NCBI RefSeq assembly: GCF_024128855.1
Contig: NZ_JAMYDV010000003.1
Span: forward strand, 62,001-126,000
Origin: Rhodovulum tesquicola
Lineage (GTDB): Bacteria > Pseudomonadota > Alphaproteobacteria > Rhodobacterales > Rhodobacteraceae
DNA: 64,000 bases
Direction: 5' to 3'
The position numbers were made by a program, and so were the translations under genes. Every line of letters starts with the position of its first letter. Position 1 is the stretch's first letter. The notes under the pieces were generated by a model that was given only the letters and a program-made list of their open reading frames with translations, was not told the DNA's origin and ran no database searches. Shown piece by piece: positions 15,381 to 32,505 of the stretch.

Positions 15381-17013
15381 GGGTCTTCCCTCCCTTTCCG
15401 CCGCGGGTGATGATCCGCAGCACCGTGTGAAGCAGCACGCCCGAGGCCATCGCGAGGAAGAAGGCGATGCCGATCAGGGCGCCCGGGCTGGTCGGGTTCG
15501 AGCCGGGCAGGTAGACGCCGGTGATCCCCGCCATGCGGCCCTGCGGGGCGTGGCATTCGCGGCAATCGACCGCATCGCTTGCGGGCGCGACCATATGGGT
15601 GATGGGCCAGTACATATGGGTATCGACGAAACCGTATTGCCCGGAATAGTCCTTGCCCGCGGCCGCCATTCCCGCCTCGATCGCCTTGGCCCAGTCGAAA
15701 TTCGTCCAGTAGGCGGTATCCGTCGTGGGACCCCAGACATTGGCATAGGCCAGATGGTTCAGGCCCGCGTCATAAGCCTGCCGCCCCTCCATCCGCTTGA
15801 AGGGCCAGATCCGCGACCGGCCGTCATCCGGGCTGCCCTCGATGCGGTTGATCTCGACCACCTGGGTCGGGTCGATCACCTTGTCGGTGAGGGTGTATTC
15901 GACCTGGCCGTTGAACCAGGCGTAATGCGGCACGACATTCTCGCCCCATTCGAAATCGCCCTTGGTGGCGAGATAGGTGTGCAGCGCCTTGCCGTCGCCC
16001 TGGACATAGTTCTCCTCATGCGCGGGCTTGCCGTCCGCATCCATCCGGCCTGCGGTCGACCAGTCCCAGCCGGTCTTGGTCGCCACCCCGCCCCGGGCGA
16101 AGCTGGGAATGTGGCAGGTCTGGCAGGCGATGCGGTCGACATGGTCGTTCAGCTTCATGCCGGTGACCGACAGCGCCTTGTGCGGCGCGGTGCCGTGGCA
16201 GCTTTCGCAGGTGGCGACGTCCTGGCGGATCTGGCCGGGCTTGCCGGTGCCCTCGGGGTCCATCGCGTGGACGTCATAGCGCGAGCCCGCGAAGATGTGC
16301 CGGTCGGAATGGTGGCAGGTCGAACAGGTGAAATTCTCGCCCTCGGCCGACATGTGGACATCGACGTCAAGGCCGGGATGGAACAGGGCGGAACTGAGAT
16401 CGCCATGTTTCACGTTGTCCCCGCCGCCGCCGTAGAAATGGCAGGAGCCGCAATTCTCGCGCCCGGGCGCGCCCACGCTTTGCGCGGCCTTCTTCAGGTC
16501 CACCGCCCAGGCGTCCGCTCCGGTGATGGTCTTGCCCTTCGCCTCCAGCGGCGGGTGGCCCGCGGCCGAGTCGAGCTTGGTGTATTGGCCCGAGGTGTCA
16601 TGGCAGACCAGGCAATCGACCGCCGTGGCCTCGCTCGGCGGAGGGGCGCTCATGTCGGTCCAGCCATAGCCGGTGTGGCAGGAGGTGCAGCGCGCCTCGT
16701 TCGAGGCCACCGTGCCGCAGAACGAGTTCACCACATGGCTCTTGCCGAGGATCTGGCCGGTCGAGGGATTCTCGAACTCCCATTTCCAGTGGATCGAGTG
16801 CTTGACCTGCGTCGCGGCCTCGGTGTGGCAGGACAGGCAGGCCGCCGTCACCTCGGGGCCGGAAGCGAAATCCTTCTGCAATTCCTTGAGCTTGGAATGA
16901 TCCGTGGTGCTTTGCGACAGCTGCGGGGCCTGGCCCTGTGCGGCCGCCCCGAATGCCCAGACCAGCCCCAGACCCAACGCAAGCGCGACCGCGCGAAGGC
17001 CGTATCCACCCAT
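15373..17013 (-). CDS. Octaheme c-type cytochrome, tetrathionate-reductase (OTR) family
   Basis: 546 residues with a signal peptide (MGGYGLRAVALALGLGLVWA...AQG). Eight CXXCH sites are present in order: CLSCH, CTSCH, CLVCH, CGSCH, CSTCH, CESCH, CQTCH and CRECH. A C-terminal transmembrane anchor (GALIGIAFFLAMASGVLLHT) follows. This matches the octaheme tetrathionate reductase family, enzymes active in vitro on tetrathionate, nitrite and hydroxylamine; the true substrate is unknown. ATG 17013 is chosen for the signal peptide and its GGGAGGAG ribosome site. It is coupled to cytochrome b. Confidence 0.9.
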   Translation of the reverse strand: MGGYGLRAVALALGLGLVWAFGAAAQGQAPQLSQSTTDHSKLKELQKDFASGPEVTAACLSCHTEAATQVKHSIHWKWEFENPSTGQILGKSHVVNSFCGTVASNEARCTSCHTGYGWTDMSAPPPSEATAVDCLVCHDTSGQYTKLDSAAGHPPLEAKGKTITGADAWAVDLKKAAQSVGAPGRENCGSCHFYGGGGDNVKHGDLSSALFHPGLDVDVHMSAEGENFTCSTCHHSDRHIFAGSRYDVHAMDPEGTGKPGQIRQDVATCESCHGTAPHKALSVTGMKLNDHVDRIACQTCHIPSFARGGVATKTGWDWSTAGRMDADGKPAHEENYVQGDGKALHTYLATKGDFEWGENVVPHYAWFNGQVEYTLTDKVIDPTQVVEINRIEGSPDDGRSRIWPFKRMEGRQAYDAGLNHLAYANVWGPTTDTAYWTNFDWAKAIEAGMAAAGKDYSGQYGFVDTHMYWPITHMVAPASDAVDCRECHAPQGRMAGITGVYLPGSNPTSPGALIGIAFFLAMASGVLLHTVLRIITRGGKGGKTHD

Positions 17014-21434: not shown

Positions 21435-21764
21435 CTAGTGCGAGATCATCCAGGGCCGCTTGGCCGGGAAGCTTTTCGATCCGTCCGGGCGGTGCAGCGT
21501 GCCGCTGTTCTTCTTGGCCCCGCCCGAACAGCAGCCGCAGCCCGGCCCGTGGCCCGAACGTTTGGGTTCGTGCCTTGCGCGCTCGTTGGTCTCATGCGCC
21601 TTGCGGGTGGCGGCGCCGACGATGGCCAGCTTGGGCGGTGTGAAGATCGCGCGCGCCGCGGTCCCGCCGCATTCGGGACAGGCGGTGGGCTTGTCGTAAT
21701 CGGCCATGGCGGCAAAGCCGGTGAAGGGGCCGCAATCGGCGCAGCAGTAATCGTAATAGGGCAT
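21435..21764 (-). CDS. FmdB-family zinc-ribbon protein
   Basis: 109 residues. An FmdB-type N-terminal ribbon MPYYDYCCADCGPF...ACPECGG with CxxC pairs (C8/C11, C29/C32) is followed by a basic linker and a Cys cluster (GCGCC, about 75) and a C-terminal SKSFPAKRPWMISH. FmdB was named for its place in the Methylophilus formamidase operon; a regulatory role was proposed but the mechanism is unproven. Here it is the last gene after fmdA, in the same order. The extra GCGCC cluster is unusual compared with short FmdB ribbons. Confidence 0.82.
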   Translation of the reverse strand: MPYYDYCCADCGPFTGFAAMADYDKPTACPECGGTAARAIFTPPKLAIVGAATRKAHETNERARHEPKRSGHGPGCGCCSGGAKKNSGTLHRPDGSKSFPAKRPWMISH

Positions 21765-21819: not shown

Positions 21820-23049
21820 TCACAGATCGGGCGCCAGCGGCACGTCCACCGAGCCGTCGAGATATTTCGTCGGCCCCGCGCTGCCCGGCTTGATGTCGAA
21901 ATCGAAGATGTCGGTCGGCAGCCAGAGCGTGGCGCAGGCATTGGGAATGTCCACCACGCCCGAGATATGCCCCTGCACCGGCGCGGTGCCGAGGATCGCG
22001 TAGGCCTGCGCGCCGGTATAGCCGAATTTCTTGAGGTATTCGATGGCGTTGAGGCAGGCCTGGCGATAGGCGATGTGAACGTCGAGGTAATGCTGCTTGC
22101 CCTGCTCGTCGACCGAGATCCCCTCGAAGATCAGGTAGTCGTCATATTTCGGCGTGATGGGCGACGGCTTGAAGATCGGGTTCTTGATCCCGTATTTCGC
22201 CACGCCGTCCTTGATGAGATCGACCTTCAGATGCAGCCAGCCCGCCATCTCGATGGCGCCGCAGAAGGTGATCTCGCCATCGCCCTGGCTGAAATGCAAA
22301 TCGCCCATCGAAAGGCCCGCGCCGTCGACATAGACGGGGAAGTAGATCTTGCAGCCGCGGCTGAGATCCTTGATGTCGCAATTCCCGCCATGTTCGCGCG
22401 GGGGCACGGTGCGGGCGCCTTCGGCGGCGGCCTTGTCGCGGGCCTCGCCCTTCAGCTTGCCCATATGAGCCGACTGGGTGTTGGGCAGCGCGGCCAGGGG
22501 CGGCACGCGGTCCGGGTCGGTGTCGACCAGCGCCTTTTCGCGGGCATTCCACATGTCCAGCATCTTGCGGTCGGGCAGGCAGCCGATCAGGCCCGGATGG
22601 ATCAGCCCTGCATATTTCACCCCCGGCACATGGCGGGACGAGGTGAACATGCCGTGGAAATCCCAGATGGACTTCTGCGCCTCGGGGAAATGCTCGGTCA
22701 GGAAGCCGCCGCCGTTCTTCTTGGAGAAGAAGCCGTTGAAGCCCCAGAGCATCTCGTCCTTGGCGCCGATATCGAGGATCTCGACCACAAGCAGGTCGCC
22801 CGGTGCGGCGCCCTTCACGCCGATGGGGCCGGACAGGTAATGCACCTGTTCGAGTTCCACGTCGCGCACATCGGCCGCGTCATCGTTGTTGGCGATCTGG
22901 CCGCCGGTCCAGTCATAGGTCTCGATCTTGAAATCGTCGCCGGGTTCGACCCAGACGGCGATGGGGATGTCGGGATGCCAGCGGTTGTGCACGCACTCGT
23001 TCGTGTGCGGGCTTTCGCCGAGATTCACCGAGATGAGGGTGTCTGCCAT
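21820..23049 (-). CDS. fmdA: Formamidase (acetamidase/formamidase family)
   Basis: 409 residues, full-length FmdA/AmdA-type amidase, hydrolysing formamide or short aliphatic amides to ammonium and the acid in the cytoplasm. Hallmarks are SPHTNECVHNRWHPD near the N terminus, GDLLVVEILDIG, HPGLIGCLPD, EHGGNCDIKDLSRGCKI and YFPVYVDGAGLSMGDLHFSQGDGE (given here in parts). It sits directly downstream of a Urt-type ABC importer. Imported amide would thus be hydrolysed for nitrogen; no urease gene is present in the window. ATG 23049 follows a GAGAGGA ribosome site. Confidence 0.95.
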   Translation of the reverse strand: MADTLISVNLGESPHTNECVHNRWHPDIPIAVWVEPGDDFKIETYDWTGGQIANNDDAADVRDVELEQVHYLSGPIGVKGAAPGDLLVVEILDIGAKDEMLWGFNGFFSKKNGGGFLTEHFPEAQKSIWDFHGMFTSSRHVPGVKYAGLIHPGLIGCLPDRKMLDMWNAREKALVDTDPDRVPPLAALPNTQSAHMGKLKGEARDKAAAEGARTVPPREHGGNCDIKDLSRGCKIYFPVYVDGAGLSMGDLHFSQGDGEITFCGAIEMAGWLHLKVDLIKDGVAKYGIKNPIFKPSPITPKYDDYLIFEGISVDEQGKQHYLDVHIAYRQACLNAIEYLKKFGYTGAQAYAILGTAPVQGHISGVVDIPNACATLWLPTDIFDFDIKPGSAGPTKYLDGSVDVPLAPDL

Positions 23050-23083: not shown

Positions 23084-23773
23084 TCAGACGGACAGGAATT
23101 TCGAGACCTTGGCCTCGTCGATCCCGTCGCGCGGGCTGTCATGGACGAAGCGGCCGTTCTCGATCACCATCACGCGGTCGGCCACGTCGAGGGCGAAACT
23201 GAGCACCTGTTCCGAGACGACGATGGACAGGCCGCGCTGGTCGCGGATGCGGCGCAGGGTGCGGGCCATGTCGCGGATGATGTTGGGCTGGATGCCCTCG
23301 GTCGGCTCATCGAGCAGAAGCACCTTGGGGTCGGAGGCCAGTGCCCGGGCGATGGCAAGCTGCTGCTGCTGGCCGCCCGACAGGTTGCCGCCGCGGCGGG
23401 ACTTCATCTCCAGAAGCACCGGAAACAATTCGTAGATATCGCCCGGCACCTCCTTCTTGCCGGTGACGGTCAGGCCGGTTTCGACGTTTTCCTGCACCGT
23501 CATGGCGGAAAAGATCATCCGCCCCTGCGGCACATAGGCGATGCCGCTGGCCACCCGCTGGTGGGATTTCAGCCCGGTGACCTCGGCCTCGCCCACGCGG
23601 ACGGTGCCGCCCGTGGCGGGCACGATGCCCATCAGCGTCTTCATCAACGTGGTCTTGCCCATGCCGTTGCGGCCCATGATCGCGACGATCTCGCCCGGCG
23701 CGACGTTCAGGTGCAGCCCGTGCAGGATTTCCGATTGCCCGTAGGCGGCGTGCAGGTCGGTGACGTTCAGCAT
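23084..23773 (-). CDS. urtE: Urea/short-chain amide ABC transporter, ATP-binding protein UrtE-type
   Basis: 229 residues of LivF/UrtE class. Walker A GRNGMGKTT, signature LSGGQQQQLAIARAL, Walker B VLLLDEPTEG and IVVSEQ for the H-loop region are present. EGIQPNIIRDM is typical of UrtE. ATG 23773 is chosen for the GGAGG site at 23780-23784. It is the fifth transporter gene in order A-B-C-D-E and is followed by fmdA. The substrate could be urea or amides (the Methylophilus Fmd system), and the formamidase neighbour favours amides. Confidence 0.92.
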   Translation of the reverse strand: MLNVTDLHAAYGQSEILHGLHLNVAPGEIVAIMGRNGMGKTTLMKTLMGIVPATGGTVRVGEAEVTGLKSHQRVASGIAYVPQGRMIFSAMTVQENVETGLTVTGKKEVPGDIYELFPVLLEMKSRRGGNLSGGQQQQLAIARALASDPKVLLLDEPTEGIQPNIIRDMARTLRRIRDQRGLSIVVSEQVLSFALDVADRVMVIENGRFVHDSPRDGIDEAKVSKFLSV

Positions 23774-23784
23774 GTCGCGCCTCC

Positions 23785-24534
23785 TCAATGGCCCAGATAG
23801 ACTTCGATGACCTTGGGATCGTTCTTGACCTTGTCCATCTTGCCCTCGGACAGGGTCTTGCCCTGGTGCAGGACGGTGACGCGGGTCGCGATGTCCTCGA
23901 CAAAGCCCATGTCATGCTCGATCACGATCACCGAGCGGTGGTCGATGATGCGGTTCAGAAGCTCGGCGGTCTTCTTGCGCTCGGCCACCGACATGCCGGC
24001 CACGGGCTCGTCCAGCATCAGCAGTTCGGGGTCCTGGATCAGCAGCATCCCGATTTCCAGCCACTGCTTCTGGCCGTGGCTGAGGAAGGCGGCCTTTTCG
24101 TCCAGCAGATCGGCCAGGAAGATCGTCTCGGCAATCTCCTGGATGCGGTCCTTGACCTCGGCATCGCGGCGGAAGAACAGCGAGCCGAAGACGCCATGCC
24201 CGCGCGGGAAGCTGAGTTCGAGATTCTCGAAGACGCTGAGATCCTCGTAGACCGAGGGAGTCTGGAACTTGCGGCCCACGCCAGCCAGAACGATCTGGTC
24301 CTCGCGCATGCTCAGAAGCTCCTGGTCCTTGAACCGGACCGAGCCGGAGGTGGCGCGGGTCCGCCCGCAGATCAGGTCGAGCACGGTGGTCTTGCCCGCC
24401 CCGTTCGGCCCGATCATCACCCGGCATTCGTTGGGTTCGACATAGAAGGTCAGCCCGTCCACCGCCTTGAACCCGTCGAAGGAGACCGTCAGATCCTCGA
24501 CAGACAGGACGAAACTGGTCTGATGAATTGACAT
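23785..24534 (-). CDS. urtD: Urea/short-chain amide ABC transporter, ATP-binding protein UrtD-type
   Basis: 249 residues of LivG/UrtD class. Walker A GPNGAGKTT, the divergent signature LSHGQKQWLEIGM characteristic of UrtD, Walker B LLMLDEPVAGM and H-loop VIEHDMGFV are all present. It pairs with UrtE to energise import through UrtB/UrtC. There are 11 bp between this stop and the urtE ATG, so it is in one operon. Confidence 0.93.
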   Translation of the reverse strand: MSIHQTSFVLSVEDLTVSFDGFKAVDGLTFYVEPNECRVMIGPNGAGKTTVLDLICGRTRATSGSVRFKDQELLSMREDQIVLAGVGRKFQTPSVYEDLSVFENLELSFPRGHGVFGSLFFRRDAEVKDRIQEIAETIFLADLLDEKAAFLSHGQKQWLEIGMLLIQDPELLMLDEPVAGMSVAERKKTAELLNRIIDHRSVIVIEHDMGFVEDIATRVTVLHQGKTLSEGKMDKVKNDPKVIEVYLGH

Positions 24535-24543
24535 GGGATCACC

Positions 24544-25725
24544 TCACTCGGCTGCGGCCTTGGCCGCCGGGCTGTCCGGGGCCGATGCGGAATTGGCGGG
24601 GAAGGGCGCGGCGGGGGGCCTGGCCCCTGCCCCGCGACCGGCGAACAGCTTGCGCAGGCGCGGCATGACCTGTTCGGACCAGAGCCCGGCAAGGCCGTTC
24701 GGAAAGAACATCACGACCGCGATGAACAGCGCGCCGAGGCCCAGGAGCCAGAGCTCGGGGAAGCTTTCCGAAAGCGTGGTCTTGGCCCAGTTGACCAGAA
24801 GCGTACCATAGACCGCGCCCAGGATCGACAGGCGCCCCCCCACGGCGGCGAAGATCACCATCTCGATCGAGGGCACGATGCCGACCAGCGTGGGCGACAT
24901 GAAGCCGACCTGAAGGGTGAACATCGCGCCGCCGATGCCCGCGAAGGCCGCGCCCAGGCAGAAGACGAAGATCTTGAAGCTGGCCACGTCATAGCCCGAG
25001 AAGCGCACCCGGTCCTCCTGGTCGCGCATGGCGATCAGCAGGCGGCCCAGTTTCGAGCGGCGGACATATTGCGCGGCAAAGAGGCAGGCGAACAGCAGCA
25101 CCGCGTTGACGAAGTAGAGGATTTCCTTGGCCTCGTCGGTGCGGATGTCCCAGCCCTTGAGCGTGCGCAGGTCGGTGATGCCGTTGACCCCGCCGGTAAA
25201 GCCCTGCTGGCCGATGATGAGGATCGTCAGGATCGCGGCGATGGCCTGGGTGATGATCGCGAAATAGACCCCCCCCACCCGGCGGCGGAACATCGCGACC
25301 CCGATGATGAAGGCGAAGGCCACCGGCACGATCACCACCGCGATCAGGCTGAAGGCGAGCGAGTTGAACGGCTCCCACCACCAGGGCAGCGCGGTGATCT
25401 GGTTCCAGTCCATGAAGTCGGGGATGCCCGGCGTGGACTGGATCGCGGTCGCCTCGGGGGTCGAGGCCTCGAGTTTCAGGAACATCGCCATGGCATAGCC
25501 GCCCAGCCCGAAGAACACCCCCTGCCCGAGGCTGAGGATGCCCCCCGCCCCCCAGCAGAGGACGAGGCCTATGGCGACGAAGGCATAGGTGAGATACTTG
25601 CCGAAGAGGTTGAGCCGGAAGCTGTCCAGCGCCAGCGGCAGGATGAGGAAGATCACCGCGGCAAGGAGGCCGAAATAGATCGCCTCTTCGCGGGTCAGGA
25701 AGCGGGTCTTGCGGTCGATTTGCAT
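24544..25725 (-). CDS. urtC: Urea/short-chain amide ABC transporter, permease UrtC-type
   Basis: 393 residues, LivM-like permease with about ten hydrophobic helices (first at FGLLAAVIFLILPLAL, about 18-33). The EAA-like cytoplasmic segment IAMRDQEDRVRFSGYDV contacts the ATPases. A proline/alanine-rich C-terminal tail of about 40 residues (GARPPAAPFPANSASAPDSP) extends past the last helix. FMDWNQITALPWWWEPF is typical of the UrtC extracytoplasmic loop. It sits 10 bp from urtB. Confidence 0.93.
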   Translation of the reverse strand: MQIDRKTRFLTREEAIYFGLLAAVIFLILPLALDSFRLNLFGKYLTYAFVAIGLVLCWGAGGILSLGQGVFFGLGGYAMAMFLKLEASTPEATAIQSTPGIPDFMDWNQITALPWWWEPFNSLAFSLIAVVIVPVAFAFIIGVAMFRRRVGGVYFAIITQAIAAILTILIIGQQGFTGGVNGITDLRTLKGWDIRTDEAKEILYFVNAVLLFACLFAAQYVRRSKLGRLLIAMRDQEDRVRFSGYDVASFKIFVFCLGAAFAGIGGAMFTLQVGFMSPTLVGIVPSIEMVIFAAVGGRLSILGAVYGTLLVNWAKTTLSESFPELWLLGLGALFIAVVMFFPNGLAGLWSEQVMPRLRKLFAGRGAGARPPAAPFPANSASAPDSPAAKAAAE

Positions 25726-25735
25726 GGGTCTTCCC

Positions 25736-26662
25736 TCACTTGCGGAGTTTCAGGGCGAACAGGCCCTGCGGGCGCAGCATCAGGATGCCGACGACCACCA
25801 GAAGCGTGATGACCTTGGCCATCGAGCCCGAGAGGAAGAATTCGAGGACGGATTGCGCCTGGCTGATCGTGAAGGCCGAGGCGATCGTGCCCAGAATGCT
25901 GCCCGCGCCGCCGAAGACGACCACGAGGAAGGTATCGACGATGTAAAGCTGTCCCGAGGTCGGCCCGGTCGAACCGATCATCGTGAAGGCCGAGCCCGCC
26001 ACGCCCGCGATGCCGCAGCCGATGCCGAAGGTCAGCCGGTCGGTGCGTTCGGTGTTGATGCCGACCGCACCCGCCATCACCCGGTTCTGGTTGATCGCAC
26101 GCACCTGCTGGCCCCAGCGCGAGCGGAACATCAGCAGATAGATCGCCACCGAGATCCCCAACGCCAGCGCCATCACGAACAGCCCGTTGATCGGCACCTC
26201 GATCATGTCGGTCAGCGGCAGCGAGCCCATCATCCAGTCCGGGATCGTGACGCCAACCTCGCGCGCGCCAAAGACCGAGCGGTAGATCTGCTGAAGGATC
26301 AGGCTCAGCCCCCAGGTCGCCAGGAGCGTGTCGAGCGGGCGGCGGTATAGATGGCGTATCAGCCCCCATTCCACCAGCATGCCCAGCGCCCCCGAGGCGA
26401 GGAAGGCCAGCGCCATCGCGACGAAGAAATAGAACGAGAACAGCGCCGGCATGTAGTCGGCGAAGGCATGCGAGACCAGGTATGTCACATAGGCGCCGAG
26501 GATCATGAATTCCCCATGCGCCATGTTGATCACGCCCATCTGGCCGAAGATGATCGCCAGACCCAGCGCCATCAGCACGAAGACCGAAAAGAGTATCAGA
26601 CCGGCGAAGCCCTGCATCGCGAAGATCGCGGTAAGCTCGCCCGCGGAATATCCGGCAAACAT
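25736..26662 (-). CDS. urtB: Urea/short-chain amide ABC transporter, permease UrtB-type
   Basis: 308 residues, LivH-like permease with about eight helices. MGVINMAHGEFMILGAYVTY and INQNRVMAGAVGINTERTDR (EAA-like loop) are strongly conserved in UrtB. It lacks the long periplasmic N-terminal domain of some UrtB proteins, as do amide-type transporters. ATG 26662 (MFAGYSAGELTAIF) is chosen; further upstream the frame runs through the intergenic hairpin and into urtA. Confidence 0.93.
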   Translation of the reverse strand: MFAGYSAGELTAIFAMQGFAGLILFSVFVLMALGLAIIFGQMGVINMAHGEFMILGAYVTYLVSHAFADYMPALFSFYFFVAMALAFLASGALGMLVEWGLIRHLYRRPLDTLLATWGLSLILQQIYRSVFGAREVGVTIPDWMMGSLPLTDMIEVPINGLFVMALALGISVAIYLLMFRSRWGQQVRAINQNRVMAGAVGINTERTDRLTFGIGCGIAGVAGSAFTMIGSTGPTSGQLYIVDTFLVVVFGGAGSILGTIASAFTISQAQSVLEFFLSGSMAKVITLLVVVGILMLRPQGLFALKLRK

Positions 26663-26741: not shown

Positions 26742-28010
26742 TTACTGGTAGCCTTCCGGGAACGGGTTGGGCTCGACCAGGTCGGCGGTCTCGAAGACCA
26801 CGTCATACTGGCCGTCCATGCGGGCGCGCCCGACGCGCGTCTTGGACCACAGGTGATGGTTCTCGTGGATCTTGACATAGCCCTCGGGCGCGGTCGGAAG
26901 CTCGATGCCGGGGCTGGCCTCGCGCACCTTGTCGATGTCGAAACTGCCCGCCGCCTCGACCGCCGCCTTCCACAGCCACGGCCCCAGATAGGCGGCTTGC
27001 GTCACATCGCCGATCACCATATCGGCGCCCCACATCTCCTTGAACGCCTTGACGAATTCGATGTTGTTGGGGTTATCCAGCGACTGGAAGTACTTCATGC
27101 AGGCATAGGAGCCCTCGATATTCTCGCCGCCGATGCCGCGGATCTCGTCCTCGGTGACGGAAATCGTCAGGACGATGGGCGATTCCTTGGTCGGGTCGAT
27201 GCCCGCAGCCTTGAGCTGCTTGTAGAAGGCCACGTTCGAGCCGCCGACGACGATGGCATAGATCACGTCGGGCTTGCGCAGCTTGATCTTGTTGATGACC
27301 GAGTTGAACTGCGTGTGGCCGAGCGGGTAGTATTCCTCGCCCACGACCTCGCAGCCCTCCATGAAGTTCTCGATATGCTTGCGGGCGATCTTGTTCGAGG
27401 TGCGCGGCCAGATATAGTCCGAGCCCAGCAGGTAGAAGCTTTTCGCGCCCTTGGTCTGGTTGACCCAGTCCAGCCCCGCGATGATCTGCTGCGTCGCTTC
27501 CTGGCCCGTGTAGATCACGTTGGGCGACTGTTCGAGACCCTCGTAGAAGGTCGGGTAGTAGAGCATGCCGTTATGCTGTTCGAAGACCGGCAGCACCGCC
27601 TTGCGGCTGGCCGAGGTCCAGCAGCCCATGACGGACGCCACCTTGTCGTTGACCAGCAACTTGCGCGCCTTTTCGGCGAAGGTCGGCCAGTCCGAGGCGC
27701 CGTCTTCCTGGATGAACTGGATCTTGCGGCCCAGCACGCCGCCCATCGCGTTGATCTGCTCGATGGCCAGTTTCTCGGCCTGGACCGAGCCGGTTTCCGA
27801 GATCGCCATGGTGCCGGTCACCGAATGCAGGATGCCGATGGTCACCGTGCTGTCGGTGACGGCCAGACCGGTGGTGTTGACCGCGGCGGTCGGGAAGTCC
27901 TGGGCGCGCAGCCCCCTGGGTGCGAACAGCGACGCGGTCAGCGCGGCACCGCCGGCCAGAACGGCGCGCCGGCTCATGCCCGGCGTCTTGGGTTTGGAAA
28001 AATCGGTCAT
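26742..28010 (-). CDS. urtA: Urea/short-chain amide ABC transporter, substrate-binding protein UrtA-type
   Basis: 422 residues. The N terminus has a twin-arginine signal (GMSRRAVLAGGAALTASLFAPRGLRA). The mature protein is of the LivJ/UrtA/FmdD class (VTIGILHSVTGTMAISETGS, GRKIQFIQEDGASDWPTFAEKA). C-terminal HHLWSKTRVGRARMDGQYDVV is the usual ending of this group. It binds urea or short amides in the periplasm. It is the first gene of a minus-strand operon (urtABCDE-fmdA-FmdB-like), with AAGGAGGCGAG before the ATG, facing the sensor-kinase gene across a palindrome. Confidence 0.94.
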   Translation of the reverse strand: MTDFSKPKTPGMSRRAVLAGGAALTASLFAPRGLRAQDFPTAAVNTTGLAVTDSTVTIGILHSVTGTMAISETGSVQAEKLAIEQINAMGGVLGRKIQFIQEDGASDWPTFAEKARKLLVNDKVASVMGCWTSASRKAVLPVFEQHNGMLYYPTFYEGLEQSPNVIYTGQEATQQIIAGLDWVNQTKGAKSFYLLGSDYIWPRTSNKIARKHIENFMEGCEVVGEEYYPLGHTQFNSVINKIKLRKPDVIYAIVVGGSNVAFYKQLKAAGIDPTKESPIVLTISVTEDEIRGIGGENIEGSYACMKYFQSLDNPNNIEFVKAFKEMWGADMVIGDVTQAAYLGPWLWKAAVEAAGSFDIDKVREASPGIELPTAPEGYVKIHENHHLWSKTRVGRARMDGQYDVVFETADLVEPNPFPEGYQ

Positions 28011-28103: not shown

Positions 28104-28138
28104 GCGCAGTATACGTCGAATGACGTATGGGACTGCGC
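28104..28138. promoter_or_regulatory. Composite palindrome in the divergent urtA / sensor-kinase promoter region
   Basis: The inner arms ATACGTC (28111-28117) and GACGTAT (28122-28128) form a perfect inverted repeat around GAAT. The outer arms GCGCAGT (28104-28110) and ACTGCGC (28132-28138) are also exact reverse complements, offset by three bases. This is the only strong dyad in the 198-bp gap. A dimeric regulator is the natural reader; the LuxR-type regulator at 31585 is the obvious candidate, but this is inference. Confidence 0.6.
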
Positions 28139-28208
28139 GTTTTTCCACCTATCATCCCTTGCTGTGGGTGACCGCCGGGCGATGCCCGGGCGGTCGGGGA
28201 ACGATGAA

Positions 28209-31200
28209 ATGACAGGGAACATGCAGGTTCCGTTCAGCGCGACCGGCGGGCGGCGCAGCTATAACCGCTGGGTCGCCAACGAGACGATGGAGGATTTCGC
28301 GCTGCGCTTCACCGCGCGACGCGCGCGGCGCTGGAGCCATGCGCGGGTGGCCAACACGGCGCTGGGCTCGATCTCGTTCCTGGCGCTGGAGGCGATCGGC
28401 GGGGCGATCACGCTGACCTATGGCTTCGACGCGGCGATCATCGCGATCATGCTGGTGGGCGCGGTGCTGTTCCTGACCGGCCTGCCGATCAGCTATTACG
28501 CCGCGCGCTACGGGGTCGATATCGACCTTCTGACCCGCGGCGCGGGGTTCGGCTATATCGGCTCGACGGTGACCTCGCTGATCTATGCCAGCTTCACCTT
28601 CATCTTCTTCGCGCTTGAGGCCGCGATCCTGGCGCTGGCGCTGGAGCTGTGTTTCGGGATTCCCGTCACGCTGGGCTACATCCTGTCGGCGCTGATCGTG
28701 ATCCCGCTGGTGGTGAACGGGTTTTCCAAGATCTCGGTCTTCCAGACCTGGACCCAGCCGTTCTGGATCGTGCTGCACCTGATGCCCTTTGCCTTTCTGG
28801 CCTGGGCGGGGACGGATCTGGGCGTCTGGACCGGGTTCGACGGCGTCCATGGCAAGGACGGCGCCACCATCCTGATGATCGGCGCGGCCTCGGGCGTGGC
28901 GCTGTCGCTGATCGCGCAGATCGGCGAGCAGGTGGATTTCCTGCGCTTCCTGCCCGAGCCGAAGACCCGGGCCGAGCGGCGCAAATGGTGGGCGGCGCTG
29001 CTGGCCGCGGGGCCGGGCTGGTCGATCCTCGGGGTGGCCAAGATGCTGGCGGGCTCGTTCCTGGTGACGCTGGTGGTCGCGGCGGGCGTGCCCGCGAAGG
29101 ACGCGACCGATCCGACGCGGATGTATCTGACCGCCTTCGAACAGGTGCTGGCCTCGCCCGCGCTGGCGCTGGCGCTGACCGGGGCCTTCGTGATCCTGAG
29201 CCAGCTCAAGATCAACGTGACCAATGCCTATGCGGGGTCGATCGCCTGGTCGAACTTCTTTTCGCGGCTGACCCATTCCCATCCGGGCCGCGTGGTCTGG
29301 CTGGTGTTCAACGTCGCCATCGCGCTGATGCTGATGGAACTGGGCGTGTTCGGGGCGCTGGAGCATATCCTTGGCCTCTATTCCCATGTCGCGCTGGCCT
29401 GGATCGGGGCGCTGACCGCGGATCTGGTGGTCAACAAGCCGCTGGGCCTGAGCCCGCGGGGGATCGAGTTCCGCCGCGCGCATCTTTACGACATCAACCC
29501 GGTCGGCATGGGGGCGATGGGCGGCGCGGTGGTGATCGCCTTTGTCGCCCATGGCGGGCTGATGGGCGAGACGGCCGAGGCGCTGTCGGCCTTCATCGCG
29601 CTGTTCACCGCCTTTGCCATGGCGCCGGTGATCGCCTGGGCCACGGGAGGGCGGTTCTACATCGCCCGCCCCCTGCCCGAGACGGCGGATCGGCAGCACG
29701 AGGCCGGGGCGACCTGTGCGTGCTCGATCTGCGAATACCGCTTCGATGCCGAGGACATGACCCATTGCCCGTTCTATGCCGGGCCGATCTGTTCGCTGTG
29801 CTGCACGCTGGACAGTTCCTGCCGCGACGGCTGCAAGCCGCATGGCCGGGTCGACGCGATGGTGGTGCGGATGCTGCATGCCGCCCTGCCCGACCCGGTG
29901 GCACGGGCGCTGATGTCGCGGCTGTCGGTCTTCGTGATCGGCACGGCGATTCCGGCGGCGATCATCGGGGGGCTTCTGCTGCTGGTCCGGGCCCATGCGG
30001 GCAGCCCCGACCTGGACGCGGTGCTGACGGTGATCTTCTGCACCGCGCTGGTGGTGATCGGGGTGATCGCCTGGACGCTGATCCTCGCCATCGAAAGCCA
30101 GAACAAGGCCCGCGACGAGGCCGACCTGCAGACCCAGCGGCTGTTGCGCGAGATCCGCGCGCATGAGCGCACGGACGCGCAATTGCAGAAGGAAAAGGAC
30201 AAGGCCGAGGCCGCGAACCTGGCCAAGACGCGCTACATGGCCGGGATCAGCCATGAATTGCGCACGCCGCTGAACGCGATCTACGGCTTTGCCCAGGTGC
30301 TGGAGAACTCTGCCGACATCCCCGCGGCACGGCGCGACGCGGTGCGCACGATCCGGCGCGGGTCGGAACATCTTGCGGGGCTGATCGAGAACCTGCTGGA
30401 CATCTCGAAGATCGAGGCCGGGCGGCTGGAGATCCATCGCGACCGGATCAACCTGCCGATGCTGTTGCGCCATGTCGCCGCGATCTTCGAGGGGCCGGCA
30501 CGCGAGAAGGGGCTGGATTTCGGCATCCGCACGACCGGCAACCTGCCCGAATGGATCGATTTCGACGAGAAGCGGCTGCGCCAGATCCTGATCAACCTGC
30601 TGTCCAACGCCATCGCCTATACCGAGCGCGGCTCGGTCGCGCTGAGCGTGCGCTATCGCAACGAGGTTGCGGTGATCGAGGTCAGCGATACCGGCATCGG
30701 CATCGCGCCCGACCAGTTCGAGCGGGTCTGGAAGCCGTTCGAGCGGCTCTCGTCCAAGGGCGGCAGCCCGGGCTCGGGGCTGGGGCTGACGATCACGCGG
30801 CTGCTGGTCGAGATCCTGGGCGGCGAGATCACCGTGGACAGCGCGCCGGGCGAGGGCACGACCTTTCGGGTCCGGCTGATGCTGCCCTCGGTCCTGCCCG
30901 AGGCCGACCAGCCCCGCGCCGCCTCGCCCGCGCCCGAGCGACTGAAGGCGCGCGGCTATCTGGGGCCGCGCCGGACGATCATGGCGGTCGATGACGATCT
31001 GGACCATCTGCGGCTGCTCGATACCGTGCTGCGACCGATGGGGTTCCTGGTGCAGACCGTGCCCGATGCAGAAACCGCGCTGGGCATCCTGGACGATTGC
31101 GCACCGGACCTGTTCCTGCTGGACATCGACATGCCGGGGATGGATGGCTGGCAACTGGCGCAGCGCCTGCGCGCGCGGCCCGACCACCGCGCCACGCCCA

Positions 31201-31595
31201 TCGTGATGGTGACCGGCCACGCGCTGGAGGCGCGGATGCCGGTCGACCGCGAGGGGCTTTACGATGCCTTCGTGGTCAAGCCCTATTCGCTGCGCGACGT
31301 GCTGGTGCGGCTGGCGGACCTGATGAAGATCGACCTGGTCTTCGAGGACCGCCACGCGGCCGAGACCGCGCCCGAGGCCGCCGCGCCGCCCGCCATCGCG
31401 CCCGAGACGCTGACGCGGTTGCAGGGGCTGGCCGGGATCGGCCATGCCGCGGGCGTGCGCCGCGAGCTTGACGCGCTGGAAGCAGCGGGCCTGCTCGATG
31501 CCGCGACGCTGGCGCGGCTGCGCGACCGGCTGGCCGAGTTCGACATGGCCGGGATCGTGCGCCTGCTCAAGGAGATGACCCGCGATGCTGCCTGA
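28209..31595 (+). CDS. NCS1-type permease / hybrid histidine kinase fusion (transporter-like sensor)
   Basis: About 1128 residues from ATG 28209; a GTG at 28164 would add 15. Domains: NCS1/cytosine-permease-like membrane domain with about 12 helices (30-490; RTARRARRWSHARVAN..., NVTNAYAGSIAWSNFFSRL); nine-cysteine linker (about 503-545; CACSIC, HCPFY, ICSLCCTLDSSC); two more helices; coiled coil; HisKA with H682 in ISHELRTPLNAI; HATPase_c (NLLSNAIAY, DTGIGI, GSGLGL); receiver with D972 (LLDIDMPGMDG) and Lys in VVKPYS. It probably senses an amide, urea or nucleobase-like ligand, and phosphorylates the downstream regulator. Confidence 0.9.
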   Translation: MTGNMQVPFSATGGRRSYNRWVANETMEDFALRFTARRARRWSHARVANTALGSISFLALEAIGGAITLTYGFDAAIIAIMLVGAVLFLTGLPISYYAARYGVDIDLLTRGAGFGYIGSTVTSLIYASFTFIFFALEAAILALALELCFGIPVTLGYILSALIVIPLVVNGFSKISVFQTWTQPFWIVLHLMPFAFLAWAGTDLGVWTGFDGVHGKDGATILMIGAASGVALSLIAQIGEQVDFLRFLPEPKTRAERRKWWAALLAAGPGWSILGVAKMLAGSFLVTLVVAAGVPAKDATDPTRMYLTAFEQVLASPALALALTGAFVILSQLKINVTNAYAGSIAWSNFFSRLTHSHPGRVVWLVFNVAIALMLMELGVFGALEHILGLYSHVALAWIGALTADLVVNKPLGLSPRGIEFRRAHLYDINPVGMGAMGGAVVIAFVAHGGLMGETAEALSAFIALFTAFAMAPVIAWATGGRFYIARPLPETADRQHEAGATCACSICEYRFDAEDMTHCPFYAGPICSLCCTLDSSCRDGCKPHGRVDAMVVRMLHAALPDPVARALMSRLSVFVIGTAIPAAIIGGLLLLVRAHAGSPDLDAVLTVIFCTALVVIGVIAWTLILAIESQNKARDEADLQTQRLLREIRAHERTDAQLQKEKDKAEAANLAKTRYMAGISHELRTPLNAIYGFAQVLENSADIPAARRDAVRTIRRGSEHLAGLIENLLDISKIEAGRLEIHRDRINLPMLLRHVAAIFEGPAREKGLDFGIRTTGNLPEWIDFDEKRLRQILINLLSNAIAYTERGSVALSVRYRNEVAVIEVSDTGIGIAPDQFERVWKPFERLSSKGGSPGSGLGLTITRLLVEILGGEITVDSAPGEGTTFRVRLMLPSVLPEADQPRAASPAPERLKARGYLGPRRTIMAVDDDLDHLRLLDTVLRPMGFLVQTVPDAETALGILDDCAPDLFLLDIDMPGMDGWQLAQRLRARPDHRATPIVMVTGHALEARMPVDREGLYDAFVVKPYSLRDVLVRLADLMKIDLVFEDRHAAETAPEAAAPPAIAPETLTRLQGLAGIGHAAGVRRELDALEAAGLLDAATLARLRDRLAEFDMAGIVRLLKEMTRDAA

Positions 31596-32505
31596 GACCT
31601 ATCCCCCGGTCCTGCCCGCCCGCTCGATCGCGCTGGTGATCGACGACGCGCCCGAGACGCTGGGGCTGATCTCGGCGGCGCTGGAGGATAACGGCATGAC
31701 GGTGCTGGTCGCGCGCTCGGGGCCCGAGGGGATCGAGCTGGCGCGCCGGGTGCGGCCCGACGTGATCCTGATGGATGCGATGATGCCCGGCATGGACGGG
31801 TTCGAGACCTGCCGCATCCTGAAATCCGGGCCGCGGCCCGAACCTGCGCCGGTGATCTTCATGACCGGGCTGACGGAGTCCGAACATATCCTGAACGGGC
31901 TGCGCGCGGGCGGGGTGGATTACATCACCAAGCCCGTGGTGGTGGACGAGCTGATCGCGCGGATCATCACCCATGTCCTGAACGCCCGCGCCGTCGCCTC
32001 GGCCCGGTCCGCGCTGGAACAGGCCGGCCAGAGCGTGCTGGCCTTTGCGCCGGACGGGCGGCTGGCCTGGGGCTCGCCCGGGGCGCTGGCGCTGCTGGAA
32101 AGCCCCGAGGGCCGCGCGCTGGTGGCCGAGGGCCGCGCCCTGCCCGCGCTGGCGCGCTGGCTGGCGGGGCTGGCCGAACAGCCGATCTCCAGCGCGCCGC
32201 CCTTTGCGGGCGCGGGGCTCGCGCTGCGCTATCTGGGCCAGAATCCCGGCGAGGTGATGGTGCGCATCCGCCGCCATGGCGAGGGCGAGAACGAGGCGCA
32301 ACTGGCGCAGGCCTTCGGCCTGACCGACCGCGAGGCCGAGGTGCTGTTCTGGCTGACCCGCGGCAAGACCAATCGCGACATCGCCGAGATCCTGGATCTC
32401 AGCGCGCGCACGGTGAACAAGCACCTGGAACAGGTGTTCCACAAGATGGGCGTGGACAACCGAACCTCGGCCGCGGTGATCGCCGACCGGCTGCTGAACG
32501 CCTGA
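31585..32505 (+). CDS. LuxR-family response regulator with central PAS-like segment
   Basis: 306 residues. Receiver domain (about 15-135) with phospho-acceptor D64 (ILMDAMMPGMDG), acidic pair at D20/D21 and K116 (VDYITKPV). A PAS-like linker (about 150-240; VLAFAPDGRLAWGSPGALALL) precedes the GerE helix-turn-helix (about 243-300; LTDREAEVLFWLTRGKTNRD, TVNKHLEQVF). It overlaps the kinase gene by 11 bp, so the two form a phosphorelay pair. The likely target is the divergent urt-fmd operon. Confidence 0.92.
   Translation: MLPETYPPVLPARSIALVIDDAPETLGLISAALEDNGMTVLVARSGPEGIELARRVRPDVILMDAMMPGMDGFETCRILKSGPRPEPAPVIFMTGLTESEHILNGLRAGGVDYITKPVVVDELIARIITHVLNARAVASARSALEQAGQSVLAFAPDGRLAWGSPGALALLESPEGRALVAEGRALPALARWLAGLAEQPISSAPPFAGAGLALRYLGQNPGEVMVRIRRHGEGENEAQLAQAFGLTDREAEVLFWLTRGKTNRDIAEILDLSARTVNKHLEQVFHKMGVDNRTSAAVIADRLLNA

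Follow-up and report, generated by a model that had tools for sequence, protein, structure and literature searches.

What does a histidine kinase with a transporter-like membrane domain perceive, and which genes does it control? The question is raised by a locus in a 64-kb stretch of the Rhodovulum tesquicola genome (64,000 nucleotides of contig NZ_JAMYDV010000003.1, positions 62,001 to 126,000; hereafter the window), in which a gene for a hybrid sensor histidine kinase (28209..31595, + strand) and one for a response regulator (31585..32505, + strand) lie divergent from a urtABCDE-fmdA-fmdB operon. A sequence-only reading of this locus had described a complete NCS1-type permease domain fused through a cysteine-rich linker to a HisKA-HATPase-receiver kinase, a transporter turned sensor facing an amide/urea import operon. 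Taken as a whole, the evidence is best explained if the kinase acts as a transceptor that senses urea or short-chain amides and controls their import and hydrolysis, and we consider this likely.

The kinase is predicted to have 1128 residues; its open reading frame opens at 28164, and ATG 28209 was taken as the presumed start in preference to GTG 28164. From the N-terminus it comprises an NCS1-like membrane domain (residues ~13-490), a module of eight cysteines (~500-560), two further helices with a coil (~570-669), and HisKA (673-738), HATPase_c (786-892) and receiver (924-1033) domains, the last three recognised by Pfam. The HisKA histidine H682 and the receiver aspartate D972 are invariant in 132 full-length homologues (locus L021 was left out of protein counts, a stop having been met upstream of its start), as expected of a hybrid kinase. 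Since these residues are invariant and at least 587 relatives exist, the architecture lies far beyond chance. The regulator gene overlaps that of the kinase by 11 bases and encodes Pfam receiver and GerE domains; its LuxR-type helix-turn-helix is conserved in 129 homologues. The kinase and its overlapping regulator are therefore as the sequence-only reading described them. An HPt domain in the tail after the receiver was ruled out, as the tail histidine is not conserved. The mean majority-residue frequency was 0.75 for the NCS1 domain, 0.749 for HisKA, 0.685 for HATPase and 0.575 for the receiver. The membrane domain is present as a single copy in the host genome.

We assign the membrane domain to the NCS1 fold because of the match of its predicted structure and because of a bridging sequence. 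An AlphaFold model built on a 44-row alignment (mean predicted local distance difference test, pLDDT, 84.2; predicted template modelling score, pTM, 0.84) shows about 12 membrane helices before the cysteine module, as counted on the model without a topology predictor. Between the cysteine module and HisKA it has a helix at 571-597 and a long helix at 601-669. When the model was searched with Foldseek, CodB and Mhp1 occupied ranks 1-5 (E 1.8e-8 to 8.9e-7, 17-19% identity), and other folds followed from E 1.3e-5, with the sodium/iodide symporter (NIS) from rank 7 on and DUR3, a urea transporter, at rank 26. By Foldseek rank the NCS1 fold is nearer than other LeuT-type folds, and the SLC5 structures rank below NCS1, so that the domain does not group with SLC5. 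Against Pfam, residues 1-664 of the kinase gave a sole match up to E 10, to Ribonucleas_3_3 (E 0.17); no STAC match was found there (whether STAC has a Pfam model was not checked), and this region contains the cysteine module. Among 44 homologues scanned singly, Vpu and DUF6526 were the commonest Pfam matches, each in 12 (best E 5e-4); they are implausible as families and were taken as chance. PDB chains searched with the sequence and with a profile of the membrane domain yielded no credible match.

The bridging sequence is a permease of 497 residues (locus L168, 9249-10739). It scores 36.4 bits against PF02133 (cut-off 23.5) and, over 479 residues, has 29% identity with the window domain (E 5e-34). 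The kinase profile finds it at 1.6e-32; the match of CodB to the same profile is weak (probability 10.6). At L168 (9249-14281) the PF02133 permease is followed by a Peripla_BP_5 binding protein, AmiC/UrtA-like, and then by an AmiR/ANTAR regulator. In the low-identity alignment with CodB, N275, F204 and W108 of CodB fall on K334, L234 and F133 of the kinase. We take N275 to be a Na+ site residue of CodB and F204 to be one stacking aromatic of its aromatic sandwich. A lysine at the position of N275 suggests that the kinase domain may lack sodium coupling, the alignment being thin at this point.

The cysteine-rich linker of the sequence-only reading was borne out, as C505, C508, C520, C528, C531, C532, C538 and C542 are invariant in the 44 aligned members. 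A profile of the module was run on a wider sample of 398 genomes from the host phylum, Pseudomonadota, scoring up to 15 candidates per genome. It gave 57 matches in 52 of the genomes at E 1e-4 or better, all within kinase places. The module was therefore rejected as a domain common to other sensors, none being found outside kinase places in the 398 genomes.

The genes that accompany the kinase were analysed in two sets. From the relatives found by a scan of GTDB species genomes, the best 80 of at least 587 were kept as the closest set. Among these, 75 have both fmdA and an fmd-type urtA, and four (L017, L033, L042 and L069), all cut by a contig end, have the fmd-type urtA without fmdA. L038 alone has neither; it was ruled out as an exception to the amide linkage, since there the kinase faces an aliphatic amidase gene (718 bits, cut-off 427). 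In the wider sample, 54 of the 398 genomes gave a kinase-family match, that in G236 being a fragment and that in G288 a kinase without the membrane domain. Of the 59 places fetched, from which the host's own locus was left out, 35 have fmdA with fmd-type urtA, 2 fmdA only, 10 a canonical urtA (5 of these with urease in range) and 7 urease only. Five were uninformative: L119 (a contig end with a 50-residue UrtA piece), L166 (a 4.8-kb contig), L168 (the permease, without a kinase), L169 (a kinase without the NCS1 domain) and L170 (a fragment). All 54 informative places thus adjoin urea or amide genes (fmdA, urtA or urease), and no full-length homologue with enough flank lies beside unrelated genes only, which is what the proposed link to the operon calls for. 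Seen from the side of the enzymes, 39 of the 40 FmdA-bearing genomes among the 398 also have a kinase-family match (the exception is G114), and urease is present in 49 of 53 kinase-family genomes searched, being missing from G054, G193, G224 and G288.

In most loci the kinase gene is followed by one for a regulator homologue; L164 and L165 are exceptions. The family kinases of these two loci (L164, 6434-10956; L165, 8263-10947) have no fused receiver and lie near fmdA and fmdB but have no urt genes around them; next to the kinase of L164 are an OmpR-type regulator and a receiver-kinase protein. The kinase of L169 (9657-11510) matches only from profile position 516 on, and a convergent receiver-LuxR gene adjoins it. 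Within the host's group the distribution of the kinase is patchy: it is present in 0 of 20 other genomes listed from the host's own family, and named Rhodobacterales relatives have it.

In a tree of 87 membrane domains the context changes between formamidase and urea at least twice, as judged by the starred branches, and four times in the best tree. The trees were built from chosen rows (87 with an outgroup, 87, and 32 with an outgroup), with L119 put in the fmd group by default. Four genomes have two kinases, one for each kind of operon (L131/L156, L153/L157, L137/L158 and L138/L162), which are 59-61% identical. Of the first 560 positions, 129 agree to at least 97% in each of the two context groups, which have 116 and 17 rows, and I345L is the only group-specific change. 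This points to one pocket that would take urea as well as short-chain amides, or else to ligands too similar for more than a few residues to discriminate between them. The range of candidate ligands can be narrowed: of the compounds named in the sequence-only reading, urea and short-chain amides fit the contexts, whereas cytosine and allantoin do not, and sensing of the latter two, which the NCS1 fold would suggest, was put aside on gene context. A ligand range of urea only was not adopted, in view of the separate canonical urtA near urease that the host carries away from the kinase (contig C6, ~75-80 kb) and of the argument by the SIMBAL authors that the formamidase-linked Urt system carries an amide (PMC3098086). 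Formamide only was not adopted either, since urease contexts exist.

Relatives of the membrane domain also occur without a kinase. A tblastn search of plasmid records found a stand-alone protein of Acinetobacter johnsonii, labelled 'allantoin permease', upstream of ureE, UreF, ureG, UreD, ureA and ureC; it is 44% identical to the window protein over 524 residues, reaching the start of the cysteine module. Eleven such relatives were opened, and urease, FmdA or an aliphatic amidase was in range at six of them (L200, L213, L215, L216, L217 and L218). The permeases at L200 (5663-7270), L213 (6926-8569), L215 (6956-8563), L217 (6953-8641) and L218 (7013-8689), all candidates for urea or amide transport, are labelled allantoin permease, cytosine permease or hypothetical. 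In two loci a kinase of the family has a stand-alone permease relative next to it. At L201 (9156-15388, A. baumannii) the permease is divergent from the kinase-regulator pair; at L216 (5320-15391, Methylovirgula) the order is fmdB, fmdA, then divergently kinase, regulator and permease, with an aliphatic amidase further on. The records of L201 and L215 are listed as plasmids yet are 4.1 and 5.4 Mb long.

Eight stand-alone permeases were compared with the kinases, and these are 41-56% identical to the window domain by local alignment. The residue is shared by all eight permeases and by 23 or all 24 of the kinases at 87 positions, among them Q237, E240, Q241, D243, R246, K334, N336 and N339. In contrast, E61, which lies in transmembrane helix 1 (TM1) by our numbering, is present in all 24 kinases and in none of the permeases. 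C505 is found in 8/8 permeases, C508, C528 and C531 in 6/8 and C520 in 2/8; C532, C538 and C542 are found in that of Methylovirgula alone. In the tree of 32 rows with an outgroup, a single branch separates the kinases from the permeases (support 86/48). This is compatible with a single origin, in either direction, from permease to sensor or the reverse. Permease twins that are in part linked to urease, formamidase or amidase genes support a transporter origin of the sensor domain and, together with the linkage of the kinases, the view of a transporter turned sensor facing an amide/urea operon.

The sensor was also met on plasmids of hospital bacteria, in Klebsiella. Matches to the membrane domain occur in 524 plasmid records, 342 of them from Klebsiella, kinases and permeases being counted together; the Klebsiella proteins are about 50% identical to the domain among the matches listed, and at least two of the records carry a permease relative. 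Two records with a kinase were opened, NZ_LR890572 and NZ_KY271406 (pKPN3-307 type C, 212,319 bp; an ST307 plasmid). In both, urtABCDE and a formamidase gene diverge from the gene of the kinase WP_004181991.1 ('ATP-binding protein'), and the regulator lies downstream of the kinase, although missing from the gene table. The plasmid formamidase, named AmiF in the Klebsiella papers, passes the nitrilase-related model NF009803 and not the FmdA model, so that formamidases of different families with the same job stand beside the same sensor. In these records (loci L199, 4909-15231, and likewise L222), both of them K. pneumoniae plasmids, kinase and regulator adjoin the urea transport/formamidase cluster known as 'UTS'. 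The kinase is labelled 'ATP-binding protein', 'response regulator' or 'ArcB' in plasmid records. Papers on ST307/CG307 propose that the urea/formamidase system may aid urinary tract colonisation (PMC5506382, PMC13060141); the pKPN-307 paper (PMC5506382) names the urea system, and by term search 'histidine kinase', 'two-component' and 'LuxR' are absent from it, as they are from PMC13060141. On balance we favour the broader view that an NCS1-like subfamily for urea or short-chain amides has gone unrecognised and exists both as plain permeases near urease, formamidase or amidase genes and as kinase-fused receptors marked by E61 and the second set of cysteines, the twins adjoining in L201 and L216, and that receptor and operator travel with 'UTS' on the Klebsiella plasmids.

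Between urtA and the kinase gene lies a palindrome with perfect inverted arms, TACGTC-GAAT-GACGTA (28112..28127), the predicted operator of the regulator. The host genome, 3.5 Mb in size, contains no other zero-mismatch copy. Shuffles of the window produce a match with two mismatches or fewer in 31 cases of 100, and for this reason it is exactness and conservation that count. Of 114 fmd-urt loci, 101 have the relaxed form TACGY-N6-RCGYA within the 420 bases that precede the kinase (69 of the 79 in the closest set, 32 of the 35 in the wider sample), against 0.58 expected from letter shuffles. In the canonical-urt loci it is upstream of the kinase in 4 of 10, and in five more (L142, L147, L154, L158 and L160) it lies within about 200 bases upstream of urtA by coordinates. 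In L057 and L127 it precedes fmdA. Among loci examined later, it stands before the kinase in 3/3 (Klebsiella, A. baumannii and Methylovirgula) and is absent from all six kinase-free permease loci. One extra match each occurs elsewhere in L199 and L216; in L216 it precedes the aliphatic amidase gene, at 15533. The host copy with one mismatch, at C4:20692, was rejected as a target of the regulator; it looks like chance, among genes which we take from their translations to be rnc/era/recO-like. A promoter scan found nothing.

We propose that an NCS1-fold permease for formamide, acetamide or urea has been joined to a hybrid histidine kinase by an eight-cysteine, probably metal-binding, module. Binding of the ligand in the permease pocket, and perhaps its passage, would alter kinase activity in one direction or the other. 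The LuxR-type regulator of the overlapping gene could then receive the phosphoryl group, with or without the fused receiver as an intermediate, and would bind TACGTC-N4-GACGTA between the divergent genes and turn on urtABCDE-fmdAB, perhaps along with its own operon. In other genomes, related pairs would control urease and urea-transport operons. If true, bacteria would have a membrane receptor for urea or small amides, and a further transporter superfamily would join those turned into kinases, with permease relatives at hand for comparison and a candidate operator. It would also offer a candidate regulator for the urea/formamidase system of Klebsiella ST307/CG307.

Several observations weigh against this proposal. 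No NCS1 model, Pfam PF02133 or NCBIfam, matches either the window domain or its 44 homologues. 'NCS1-like' is thus right for the predicted fold and formal Pfam membership fails; the 'complete NCS1-type permease domain' of the sequence-only reading stands as a fold, by the AlphaFold/Foldseek match and the bridging sequence, and not as a match to any NCS1 sequence model. For five of the 11 permeases (L201 and four from Actinomycetota, L214, L219, L220 and L221), the queries used gave no gene for an amide or urea enzyme in the vicinity. With regard to the palindrome, the host genome has a single one-mismatch copy and twelve two-mismatch copies, fewer than a reversed control pattern gives, and the relaxed form occurs at 12 places, again below its control; the host's canonical urt-urease cluster has none. 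The relaxed form is missing upstream of the kinase in 13 of the 114 fmd-urt loci, 6/10 canonical-urt loci, 5/7 urease-only loci and both fmdA-only loci. Moreover, it was defined on the same loci as were counted, many of them from Bradyrhizobium, and the count is not independent. Finally, the transporter domain of CbrA is reported to be non-essential for signal perception (PMC9100948), and because of this, homology alone is no proof that the membrane domain senses.

The last point bears on an alternative that we regard as quite unlikely, in which the signal enters elsewhere, as a metal or redox cue at the eight-cysteine module or as nitrogen status in the cytosolic part, and the NCS1 domain moves its substrate or serves as an anchor. 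Besides the CbrA precedent, the cysteines speak for it: all eight are invariant in the kinases, while C532, C538 and C542 recur in one of eight permeases and C520 in two. Against this, the NCS1 domain equals HisKA in conservation and exceeds HATPase and receiver, and the genes linked to the kinase are those for the substrate. The domain might also still be an active importer whose flux the kinase reports, a dual role that we hold to be unlikely. It would account for the 87 positions held in common with the stand-alone permeases, and CbrA, which unites histidine transport with a kinase (PMC13022988), has been argued to be dual. However, the presence of E61 in every kinase and no permease hints at an altered cycle, an ATP-binding cassette (ABC) importer already adjoins most kinases, and Ks-Amt5 gave up transport on becoming a sensor (PMC5764959).

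The remaining alternatives concern the ligand and the target genes. Were the ligand a nucleobase, allantoin or hydantoin, as for other NCS1 proteins, the fold and the 'allantoin permease'-type database names of the permease relatives would be explained; however, the constant neighbours are urease, formamidase and amidase genes (nucleobase and allantoin catabolic genes were not searched for), and the position of F204, a presumed stacking aromatic of CodB, aligns with leucine in 23/24 kinases and 8/8 permeases. We judge such a ligand very improbable. That the linkage reflects common descent only and the pair regulates something else appears more improbable still. Nothing was met in its favour save palindrome near-matches scattered over the host genome, and these are chance-like; against it, the context switches remain within urea and amides, and the palindrome is found upstream of urtA or fmdA where the kinase sits elsewhere.

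The proposed transceptor for urea or short-chain amides faces an operon whose seven proteins all exceed the cut-off of an NCBIfam model, in agreement with the gene order urtABCDE-fmdA-FmdB-like proposed from the sequence. All are encoded on the - strand: an UrtA-type amide/urea binding protein (26742..28010; TIGR03407, 547 bits, cut-off 492.75), the permeases UrtB (25736..26662; TIGR03409; open reading frame from 26878, presumed start 26662) and UrtC (24544..25725; TIGR03408), the ATPases UrtD (23785..24534; TIGR03411) and UrtE (23084..23788; TIGR03410), the formamidase FmdA (21820..23049; NF045496, 769.8 bits, cut-off 500; open reading frame from 23142, the start likewise presumed) and an FmdB-family zinc-ribbon protein (21435..21764; TIGR02605; open reading frame from 21941, presumed start 21764). 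The last contains an RPWMISH domain (NF053663) in addition to its zinc ribbon.

Among the top matches in open-access full texts we found no description of this kinase, of any NCS1-kinase or of a urea/amide histidine kinase of such kind, and no recognisable paper on the stand-alone permeases. A Pseudomonas veronii cluster, amiE-fmdA-fmdB-urtABCDE, has been described together with growth on formamide, and by term search 'histidine kinase' does not occur in that paper (PMC13209695). Transceptors are reported to be rare, and a protein of another fold has been offered as the first prokaryotic case under its authors' own strict definition (PMC11109136).

The closest parallels are the SLC5/STAC kinases of CbrA/CbrB, CrbS/CrbR and RpuS/RpuR, which likewise join a transporter-fold membrane domain to a histidine kinase; CrbS and RpuS are, in addition, hybrids with LuxR-type partners, and CrbR requires an inverted repeat (PMC5715377, PMC9100948). 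The window kinase differs from them in being NCS1-like and not SLC5, in having an eight-cysteine module at the site that STAC takes in those kinases, and in its linkage to urea/amide genes. Ks-Amt5 is similar in that a nutrient transporter domain was repurposed to sense a nitrogen compound, in its case ammonium; it differs by its Amt fold and by DHp and CA domains with no fused receiver described, and its partner regulator is given as not yet identified (PMC5764959). Amide-responsive control of amidase genes is also exerted by AmiC/AmiR (PMC13209695), albeit through a soluble binding protein and an RNA-binding antiterminator. As to the membrane domain itself, CodB and Mhp1 are the best predicted-fold matches, yet share only 17-19% identity with it. 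The stand-alone permeases of Acinetobacter, Moraxella, Klebsiella 176, Methylovirgula and Actinomycetota have the same polar positions in TM6 and TM8; they differ from the kinase in that no kinase is attached, E61 is absent from all eight and the second set of cysteines is absent from most.

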